Below are positions 24,420-62,602 of a DNA stretch of 64,000 bases, piece by piece. The stretch covers positions 1 through 64,000 of the forward strand of contig CAJODK010000014.1 of NCBI GenBank assembly GCA_905233245.1, in the 5' to 3' direction. Numbering within the stretch: the first letter of the stretch is position 1; each line of letters opens with the position of its first letter. This stretch comes from an uncultured Prevotella sp. (GTDB taxonomy: Bacteria; Bacteroidota; Bacteroidia; Bacteroidales; Bacteroidaceae). A program made the translations under genes and the position numbers. Under the pieces are notes generated by a model that worked only from the letters and a program-made list of their open reading frames with translations, ran no database searches and had not been told where the DNA came from.

Positions 24420-24791
24420 TTAGTTATTATTCCAAAACAAAAGAGCTTCGTGAATGTTCATTGTTGGAAAACTACTAAGCGTACATATTACTTGCCAAAG
24501 TTTCACCTCAGATGGGTCTACATCCCCATCAGAAGCCATAATAGCAGCCAAATAACCTGTTGCATACTTTTTTTGTTCGTTTGTCATGTTGGACAATGTG
24601 GCAATCGCATCACTTGCATCCATAATCTGACTGTTGGAGATAATAACAGCCGCATCATTCCCTTTAACTCCAAACTTTACTAATTCAAAAGCAATAGCAG
24701 CTTTTTCTACTTCTTCCACTTTACCATCTGCCATTGCCATAGCCACGCCCATCTTTACTAGAGCTGAAAGCTGTTTTCCATTTAAAATCAT
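24420..24791 (-). CDS. TerB-like protein
   Basis: 123 residues, all helical by composition. The repeats AMADGKVEEVEKAAI (about 19-33) and IMASDGDVDPSEVKLW (about 88-104) are the paired acidic motifs of the TerB/TerB-like fold, a metal-binding domain found in tellurite-resistance and stress or phage-defence contexts. No other ter genes are nearby. First gene of the AT-rich three-gene unit. Domain call is good; role is unknown. Confidence 0.7.
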   Translation of the reverse strand: MILNGKQLSALVKMGVAMAMADGKVEEVEKAAIAFELVKFGVKGNDAAVIISNSQIMDASDAIATLSNMTNEQKKYATGYLAAIMASDGDVDPSEVKLWQVICTLSSFPTMNIHEALLFWNNN

Positions 24792-24862
24792 AGTATTTTA
24801 TTTACGTTTTTCCTCTAGCTCCTAAGGAAAATTTTAATGTTTAGTTTTAGGTTATAGACATA

Positions 24863-25168
24863 CACAAAAAACGTGGAGCCAGTCTCTTTTGCCCGGTCCA
24901 CATTCTGAAGGCTCTCGCATCGCCCTGTTCATCCAACCGAGCAACGCTGAAAGCCCCACGCCGATGTATCATAGATGGAGGAACCTGTATAGGATACTCA
25001 CATGCAGATCTACACCTTCAAGGGGCGTTCCCGTTGCTTTGTTTTTGACGAACAGTTAGAATTTGCGAGATTCTCAGAATGTCAAAACCAAAGCGTCCAG
25101 AAAACGCCTTTTATATGTATGTATGAGCCTTTCAATCACACCGCTTCACGAAGCGGAACTTAGAACTC
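24863..25168 (-). ncRNA. candidate structured small RNA (about 300 nt)
   Basis: A perfect promoter (TTG-N20-TAACTTTG, minus strand) opens a region without a plausible gene and ends at a GTGGA..TCCAC hairpin followed by GTTTTTT (24867-24901). In between, AGCAACG + GCCCC pair at a distance with GGGGC + CGTTGCT, enclosing smaller stems (TAGAT/ATCTA, GTATC/GATAC), and a short GCTTC-ACGAAGCGG hairpin lies near the 5' end. It lacks tmRNA tag codons and RNase P consensus blocks. A 6S-like regulatory RNA is one possibility, not demonstrated. Confidence 0.5.
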
Positions 25169-25174
25169 ACGTGG

Positions 25175-25205
25175 CAAAGTTAAGAATTAATTTTGAAATA
25201 AACAA
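25175..25205 (-). promoter_or_regulatory. promoter of the candidate small RNA
   Basis: TTG (25203-25205) - 20 nt - TAACTTTG (25175-25182) on the minus strand. The -33 box and the following AGGAGCGAAAAATC are shared almost exactly with the promoter at 26495-26525. Confidence 0.78.
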
Positions 25206-25391: not shown

Positions 25392-25413
25392 TCGGATTGA
25401 CACTCTTCAACTC

Positions 25414-25562
25414 ATTTTACCCTCACTTACTCACCTGTTGGCTTCTATCCCGCGTAGTTACTGGGCTCAGCCAGGTGGGGGGTAAACTATTTCTCCCCCA
25501 CTCGCTTCAGCCCAGTATTCATGCGGGTTGCAGACGAGCAAGTGAGTAATTGGGGGTAAAAT
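25414..25562. repeat. large imperfect foldback (about 149 nt) with dispersed repeat copy 2
   Basis: Outer arms ATTTTACCC..ACTTACTCAC and GTGAGTAATT..GGGTAAAAT, middle arms CCCGC..ACTGGGCT / AGCCCAGT..GCGGG, inner GGGGG/CCCCC. Residues 25494-25538 repeat the sequence at 22204-22248. Lies just downstream of the toxin-antitoxin genes. No ORF in it is credible. Confidence 0.75.
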
Positions 25563-25597
25563 GCAAAAAGTAGTAATGTCAAAGGTCAAAGGTAAAG

Positions 25598-26215
25598 CTA
25601 AACGCCCTGCATTGCTATTTCTGTGAGGGCTGTTTTTATTTGCTCTTCCGTTGGTGGATTATCTATCAGGTATTCCACTTCTTCTGTATAATCGATGTCT
25701 TCGAAGAAGCATAGTTGAGAACGAAACATCTTTTCTGAATACAATTGTCCGAAAATCTTTTGGGCTTCTTGTGATATTTCCTCTATATTAAAGTGATGAG
25801 TGAGAAGGAAATAGAGGTCAACGTAATCTTTCCATTTCGAACGCCTTCCTAAAGCATATGCCTTCATCGCTGCCAACTGCAACAGGGATGGCATACGGAA
25901 AATGTTCTCAAATCTCTCGCTAGGCTCTATTGGAAATGGATACTCGAAGAATGTGACCTTTACATCATTGATGATAAGATTCATCTGATCTTCCACTCTG
26001 CGCGTTACTACATAGCTATATGGAGATTTCTCAAGTTTGTCTAAGTTGCGTTTGTGATTTATATATGTTGGCTTAAACATATCGAAGTCTATAGAACGAC
26101 GATGACCGATATGCATAGCTATAGCTGTCCCACCGACAAGGTAATACTCCCTTTTGAATTGTGACATTATAGGGAGCAATTCCTGTTGTTTCTTATTTAG
26201 TATTTCGCTATGCAT
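25598..26215 (-). CDS. AbiEii/DUF1814-type nucleotidyltransferase toxin
   Basis: 205 residues. LVGGTAIAMHIGHRRSIDFDMF (about 26-47) carries the GG and D-x-D motifs of the AbiEii/MenT nucleotidyltransferase fold; LAAMKAYALGRRSKWKDYVDLYFL is the second conserved block with the K-D pair. Such proteins are toxins of type IV-like toxin-antitoxin and phage-exclusion systems, modifying tRNA or other substrates with nucleotides. The ATG overlaps the end of the upstream partner by 8 nt, so the pair is coupled. Role in phage defence is inferred. Confidence 0.85.
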   Translation of the reverse strand: MHSEILNKKQQELLPIMSQFKREYYLVGGTAIAMHIGHRRSIDFDMFKPTYINHKRNLDKLEKSPYSYVVTRRVEDQMNLIINDVKVTFFEYPFPIEPSERFENIFRMPSLLQLAAMKAYALGRRSKWKDYVDLYFLLTHHFNIEEISQEAQKIFGQLYSEKMFRSQLCFFEDIDYTEEVEYLIDNPPTEEQIKTALTEIAMQGV

Positions 26216-26468
26216 ACTTCTTTAATACCAGTGAGAAGAAGTGGTATATCTCAGGGTAGTAATTTAGTTTCTGTCTGCCATTGGCAGAAAAGAATATCTC
26301 CGCTACCCGCTTACCTCCGAGTGTGTCAACCAACTCTCTGTAATCGTCAAGCGTGCCATCATTGAGTATGCGCTCCACCAACAGGGCATCACTGATGTCC
26401 TGCTTCTTGGCTTCTGGAGTGTACCAGAAGAGGTTCTTGTGCTTCTCTATAATCTGCTGACGTGACAT
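26208..26468 (-). CDS. probable antitoxin partner of the AbiEii-type toxin
   Basis: 86 residues, helical, beginning MSRQQIIEKHKNLFWYTPEAKK with ERILNDGTLDDYRELVDTLG in the middle. This type of small protein (resembling what is annotated DUF6922) regularly precedes AbiEii-like genes in Bacteroidetes. It is first in the operon, overlaps the toxin by 8 nt and has a consensus promoter. Antitoxin function is inferred from position and size. Confidence 0.7.
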   Translation of the reverse strand: MSRQQIIEKHKNLFWYTPEAKKQDISDALLVERILNDGTLDDYRELVDTLGGKRVAEIFFSANGRQKLNYYPEIYHFFSLVLKKYA

Positions 26469-62417: not shown

Positions 62418-62495
62418 GGGCGTTTAGCTCAGCTGGTTTAGAGCATCTGCCTTACAAGCAGAGGGTCGGCGGTTCGAATCCGTCAACGCCCACCA
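62418..62495 (+). tRNA. tRNA-Val (anticodon TAC), copy 1
   Basis: Acceptor GGGCGTT/AACGCCC, anticodon stem TCTGC/GCAGA with loop CTTACAA giving TAC, T-loop TTCGAAT. The 3' CCA is encoded at 62493-62495. Confidence 0.95.
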
Positions 62496-62505
62496 CCCCA
62501 CACTG

Positions 62506-62580
62506 GGGCGTTTAGCTCAGCTGGTTTAGAGCATCTGCCTTACAAGCAGAGGGTCGGCGGTTCGAATCCGTCAACGCCCA
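62506..62580 (+). tRNA. tRNA-Val (anticodon TAC), copy 2
   Basis: Identical to copy 1 over 75 nt but without encoded CCA. The copies lie 10 nt apart and form one transcript ending at the following hairpin. Confidence 0.95.
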
Positions 62581-62602
62581 CTTTTCTCTCTCTCTAACTC
62601 TT

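Follow-up and report, generated by a model that had tools for sequence, protein, structure and literature searches.

A candidate attenuator leader RNA of Bacteroidales, absent from Rfam 15, with two predicted mutually exclusive folds

On the minus strand ahead of a gene for a TerB-domain protein lies a stretch of about 300 nt that has the signals of a transcription unit, and it raises the question of whether it makes a small RNA that acts on its own or a leader for the gene behind it. An earlier note, made from the letters of the window (the whole 64,000-nt stretch of DNA that was analysed), had proposed a free-standing small RNA. Comparison of homologous loci suggests instead a family of 5′ leaders, probably attenuators, with a further hairpin beyond the terminator.

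The RNA, its promoter and its terminator

The RNA (24866-25174, minus strand) runs from near the transcription start through the last base of the U-run, with the transcript ends as we infer them, and comparison of homologues shows it to be a genuine structured RNA that carries a promoter and a terminator of its own. Its predicted fold of -111.8 kcal/mol compares with a mean of -86.7 kcal/mol for shuffled sequences (z = -5.7; 0 of 100 shuffles equally stable), and fold stability, covariation of its long rod, described below, and conservation of promoter and U-run are all above chance, which bears out the structured RNA that the earlier note had claimed. The note was also right about a promoter and a terminator, and erred on the end of the element, which continues past the T-run to about 24808 and includes a conserved post-terminator hairpin. 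A higher GC content than that of the neighbours, which it had reported for the whole, holds for the 3′ part of the leader (0.48-0.52 versus 0.27-0.42 nearby). The first ~50 nt at the 5′ end are a domain apart, whose layout is conserved and whose sequence is not; its predicted hairpin in the window is CCGCTTcgtgAAGCGG (25141-25156, minus strand), and a comparable stem can be seen by eye in the alignment of homologues.

The promoter, conserved and of the Bacteroidetes type (25175-25205, minus strand), has TTG at 25205-25203, a 20-nt spacer and TAACTTTG at 25182-25175, all of them parts that had been named before. An upstream copy of the TAnnTTTG box is carried by 123 of 133 homologues, compared with 5.6% of control windows, and TTG is enriched in the upstream regions of homologues at a spacing of 19-21 from this box. 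Just upstream of the promoter is an imperfect 74-nt inverted repeat (25413-25563, 72% complementary). Partial copies, about ten or more of them, are found at other sites of the genome, and it looks like a dispersed palindromic repeat. An AbiEii-type nucleotidyltransferase gene (25598-26468; Pfam AbiEii, E 7.6e-12) and, before it, a small gene with a weak match to DUF6922 also adjoin the leader, and the two are possibly a type IV toxin-antitoxin pair.

At the other end is a predicted intrinsic terminator (24866-24901, minus strand), a hairpin ending in CCACG and followed by T6 (24871-24866), as had been described. The isolated hairpin is worth -12.7 kcal/mol in the window and -11.5 kcal/mol on average across loci, and at least six T within 8 nt after the stem are found in 88% of loci versus 1.4% of controls. 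Hairpin and U-run stand ahead of a gene, the arrangement looked for in an intrinsic-terminator attenuator.

A family of leaders ahead of accessory genes

The gene that follows in the window (24420-24791, minus strand) encodes a TerB-domain protein of 123 aa (Pfam TerB, E 2.6e-7); its start codon is 75 nt after the RNA and it is the presumed target. Of 130 non-redundant related loci, 125 have as their nearest downstream gene one that shares the strand of the RNA, compared with 78 of 126 upstream neighbours (78 versus 48; P = 2e-20). The distance to the gene has a median of 76 nt and is usually 65-85 nt after the U-run, and distant copies with weak profile scores retain the gene arrangement, the promoter and the U-run. 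In the spacer between U-run and gene, a promoter of the TAnnTTTG type is nearly absent (3 of 102 loci, with 99 lacking it), and we rejected a downstream gene with its own promoter on this ground. A same-strand gene at a narrow distance, with no promoter of its own, is the arrangement of a 5′ leader, and an element that lies between a promoter and such a gene is best taken as one, in the window as the leader of the TerB-domain gene.

The first downstream genes at other loci are unrelated accessory genes with no obvious common pathway. They encode BspA leucine-rich repeat proteins (7 of 100), VWA proteins (6) and kinases (3), and further UvrD-like, restriction-modification, SNF2, DUF4007, DUF6175 and small HTH proteins, surface proteins and lipoproteins, and VWA/kinase systems; by a crude rule, 45 of 99 first-gene products look secreted. 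PADLOC matches a minority of these genes and surface proteins and lipoproteins are equally common, so a defence-only regulon is not claimed. Small HTH proteins of ~75 aa, possible regulators, are encoded directly after the leader in four loci (L087, L146, L173, L184).

Rfam 15, searched at gathering and permissive thresholds, gave no match to the leader in the window. In 20 loci with homologues there was no leader match either, the only hits being to tRNA and abiF RNA elsewhere in those loci. The leader matched no 6S model, in the window or in the 20 loci, and none for tmRNA, RNase P or SRP RNA, in agreement with the earlier exclusion of these last three. It is a well-supported class of structured leader absent from Rfam 15. 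Among other RNAs, one Segatella copri genome has an abiF RNA (RF03085) near its copy of the leader (L079 6936-6972), and at 62418-62581 the window holds a pair of neighbouring tRNA-Val genes that share the anticodon tac.

Of 301 genomes of the same family, 115 gave homologues in a nucleotide search. A 23-base core pattern occurs in at least 119 stretches of the named genome collection; among the matches listed, almost all are labelled Bacteroidales, and they include Prevotella, Segatella copri, Xylanibacter brevis, Bacteroides, Phocaeicola, Parabacteroides and Muribaculaceae. We also searched with a profile of the 3′ 104 nt of the leader, scoring the best ten candidates per genome, so genome and copy counts are lower bounds: at least 53 of 393 genomes across the order have the leader, with up to at least 8 copies in one genome and at least 2 in the source genome. 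In 396 genomes from the phylum, with the best ten candidates per genome scored, the same search hit just two, the source genome and a second one from its order. Within the searches made, the family is confined to Bacteroidales, at 1-8 copies per genome. The second, divergent copy in the source genome (G000 contig C17:43728-43828; L185, L200) precedes a gene whose product is secreted and weakly matches a C-terminal sorting domain. Plasmids and phages, searched at the nucleotide level, gave no leader match, viral contigs hold the core pattern in one stretch, and no neighbour or partner gene next to the leader is conserved among the 130 loci; a mobile-element or phage RNA was rejected on these grounds.

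A rod, its alternative folds and a possible switch

The structure was analysed on an alignment of 114 homologous sequences. In an all-against-all covariation scan, with no structure supplied, the helices of a long rod rank first, and the RNAalifold consensus agrees with this rod. Across 32 named rod pairs 98.3% of cells are paired, 18 of the pairs show two-sided changes (610 cells), and the covariation score is 0.485, compared with 0.170 for shuffles and about 0.10 or less (maximum 0.099) with slid partners. Covarying pairs, whose absence from homologues was one of two grounds on which the earlier note would have dropped its proposal, are thus present, and both segment pairings that it had pointed out, AGCAACG with CGTTGCT and GCCCC with GGGGC, are found on the minus strand.

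Rod helix A joins 25065-25081 to 24901-24918 (all rod and hairpin coordinates are on the minus strand), contains the top covarying pairs and is 98-99% paired. Helix B joins 25047-25054 to 24926-24932, is 96.9% paired and has two-sided changes at 6 of 8 pairs. The GGGCAA internal loop between them is unpaired and strongly conserved (GGGCGA at 24925-24920 in the window), and may be where a ligand or protein binds. Helix C, AGCAAC at 25033-25038, is 100% paired and nearly invariant, and so carries little covariation information; at its 5′ end it is common to the hairpin HP1. According to pairing counts, the strand GTTGCTCGGTTG (24934-24945) has as its partner either 25033-25038, in the rod, or 24888-24899, in the hairpin HP3. 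The rod is capped by a CCCC/GGGG hairpin (24954-25025) that is 98.2% paired, with a loop variable in length and sequence in the alignment.

HP1, an early hairpin, pairs GCTTTGGTTTTGAC (25081-25094) with GTCAAAAACAAAGC (25036-25049), with 97.1% of cells paired and two-sided changes at 6 of 13 pairs. It is present in 87% of sequences in predicted folds of transcripts cut before the 3′ half, and is replaced by the rod in 89-92% of predicted full-length folds. By comparison of homologues, HP1 and the rod are two conserved, mutually exclusive folds, the combination of conserved fold and alternative structure that is looked for in riboswitches. HP3 joins the rod strand GTTGCTCG to GAGYRAC at the terminator foot, and its 3′ arm (24888-24899) overlaps the terminator 5′ arm. 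HP3 is 96.1% paired, mostly via G-U-compatible one-sided changes opposite an invariant partner; a two-sided change occurs at one pair, in 13 cells from sequences that may be one clade. HP3, which has moderate support, would be in competition with the terminator. Only about one third of predicted full-length folds show a complete terminator, because the last pairs of the rod overlap it. Relative to the best fold, the median cost is 1.8 kcal/mol for rod plus terminator and 9.5 kcal/mol for HP1 plus HP3, so a signal would be needed to hold the latter.

We lean towards reading the element, a cis-regulatory 5′ leader whose class is seen here only in Bacteroidales, as a transcription attenuator that changes conformation much as riboswitches do. 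Such a mechanism is probable, although the regulation, the signal and the direction of switching are as we infer them; default termination with signal-dependent read-through is the simplest reading and gives the presumed direction. RNA polymerase would start at TAnnTTTG, and HP1 would form first. As the 3′ half emerges, the RNA would by default rearrange to the more stable rod, leaving the terminator free, and transcription would stop ~70 nt ahead of the gene. A signal (a small molecule, an ion or a protein), acting on the conserved core or on HP1 and the apical hairpin, would hold the early fold, so that the GUUGCUC strand would pair with GAGYRAC in HP3 instead; HP3 would take the terminator 5′ arm and polymerase would read into the gene. 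Once read-through has occurred, the released 3′ arm of the terminator could pair with the downstream hairpin's loop, and this may fix the RNA in the open fold or modulate translation. Shared by many accessory genes, the leader would unite them in one regulon.

The full form of this proposal, to which we give somewhat less than even credence, is a new signal-sensing class of Bacteroidales leaders that places dozens of unrelated accessory genes (defence, signalling, surface) under one signal through a three-way exchange, with the terminator 3′ arm captured by the downstream hairpin after read-through. Should the switch exist, accessory and defence-like genes would answer to its ligand as a common signal, which is directly testable.

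Rival readings and known systems

The least explained part of the element is the post-terminator hairpin, TTTTCCT-loop-AGGAAAA (24808-24831, minus strand), which in the window is ~17 nt ahead of the start codon and has a loop, GGAGCTAG (24822-24815), complementary to the terminator 3′ arm CTGGCTCC (24882-24875). A stretch complementary to the locus's own arm is found in 122 of 162 loci, compared with 10% with shuffled spacers, and begins beyond the terminator stem at a distance of 42-48 nt (interquartile range); it is usually in a hairpin loop, a placement for which the stem control is weak (98% versus 74%). In 54 loci with an arm that deviates from GGCTCC the loop deviates along with it, with a mean score of 15.2 versus 11.7 (sd 0.31) when permuted, the maximum of 5000 permutations being 12.8; examples are AAATCCC with GGGATTT, AGTATCCC with GGGATACT, and AGACTCTC with GAGAGTCT. 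This locus-specific pairing needs explanation. Because the hairpin is made after polymerase clears the U-run it cannot decide termination there, and because the pairing is impossible before that point simple attenuation does not explain it. The hairpin may hold the RNA in its read-through fold, or have a role in translation or stability. To our knowledge, a terminator arm that pairs with a hairpin beyond the U-run matches no known attenuator design.

The exchange between arm and downstream loop makes sense only in read-through RNA, and so counts for a leader that controls translation or mRNA stability and not termination. The terminator-like and post-terminator hairpins would then swap partners near the start codon, with the terminator 3′ arm taking either an upstream partner or the downstream loop, in a locus-specific manner. 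The U-run kept in 88% of loci makes this unlikely, since a purely translational device would not need one.

Long structured leaders are the substrate of antitermination factors, and the diverse operons under one leader, together with conserved internal-loop bases such as GGGCAA, would suit an RNA-binding or NusG-like factor that recognises the leader and modifies polymerase, as with put RNA or LoaP leaders. Such protein-directed antitermination seems unlikely, given that no partner gene is conserved beside the leader and that the HP1/HP3 exchange would be superfluous. The free-standing regulatory RNA of the earlier note, a 300-nt transcript acting in trans with the downstream gene incidental, would account for the own promoter, the conserved U-run, a discrete predicted transcript and several copies per genome. 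We consider it improbable, as it leaves unexplained the same-strand, promoterless gene at a narrow distance in 125 of 130 loci, and the conserved hairpin past the U-run that is paired to the terminator arm; under the preferred attenuator reading, terminated leader transcripts of 300 nt may nevertheless build up as a discrete RNA. Attenuation by a leader peptide, on the model of trp operons, was rejected as very improbable: most loci have an AUG in GGGCAAUGCG, opening a frame of median 24 codons that crosses the terminator, but no reading frame is conserved by position, start and stop columns are not common to homologues, frames differ between loci, 27 of 128 stop early, and some distant copies lose the AUG with helix changes yet keep GGGCAA.

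Large, strongly covarying structured RNAs outside known families are rare, and the leader is spread through an order that is dominant in the human and ruminant gut; among its hosts are the cultured Segatella copri, Xylanibacter brevis and Bacteroides caecigallinarum. The leader is not described in the parts of the open-access literature covered by our search, and its novelty is relative to Rfam 15 and those texts. The B. thetaiotaomicron leaders and 6S RNA mapped by Ryan 2020 include no such element in the accessible part of that paper. Fremin and Bhatt 2021 (PMC8040213) predicted 3161 structured RNAs in human microbiomes, and a fragment of the family may be listed, unnamed, among them.

Like T-box leaders, the element is long and would choose between terminator and antiterminator, but it has no Rfam T-box match and its downstream genes are not amino-acid related. 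Leaders of the put RNA, LoaP and UpxY types also head diverse or accessory operons and may override termination, UpxY acting on capsule operons; the leader studied here has no linked factor and has conserved, self-contained alternative folds. With 6S RNA and Bacteroidales-1 (RF01693), which is among the Bacteroidetes motifs listed by Weinberg 2010 (PMC2864571), it has in common a long rod shape, an own promoter and occurrence in Bacteroidales, whereas it is multicopy, precedes genes and has no Rfam match; identity with Bacteroidales-1 was rejected, RF01693 being a separate single-copy locus in the source genome (C1:84227-84417). It resembles terminator-controlling orphan riboswitch candidates such as pfl and crcB, as first described (Weinberg 2010, PMC2864571), in its conserved structure before diverse genes, its overlap with an intrinsic terminator and its predicted mutually exclusive folds. 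In contrast to these, the leader is much larger (~300 nt), is limited to Bacteroidales, precedes genes without a metabolic theme and carries an extra hairpin past its terminator.
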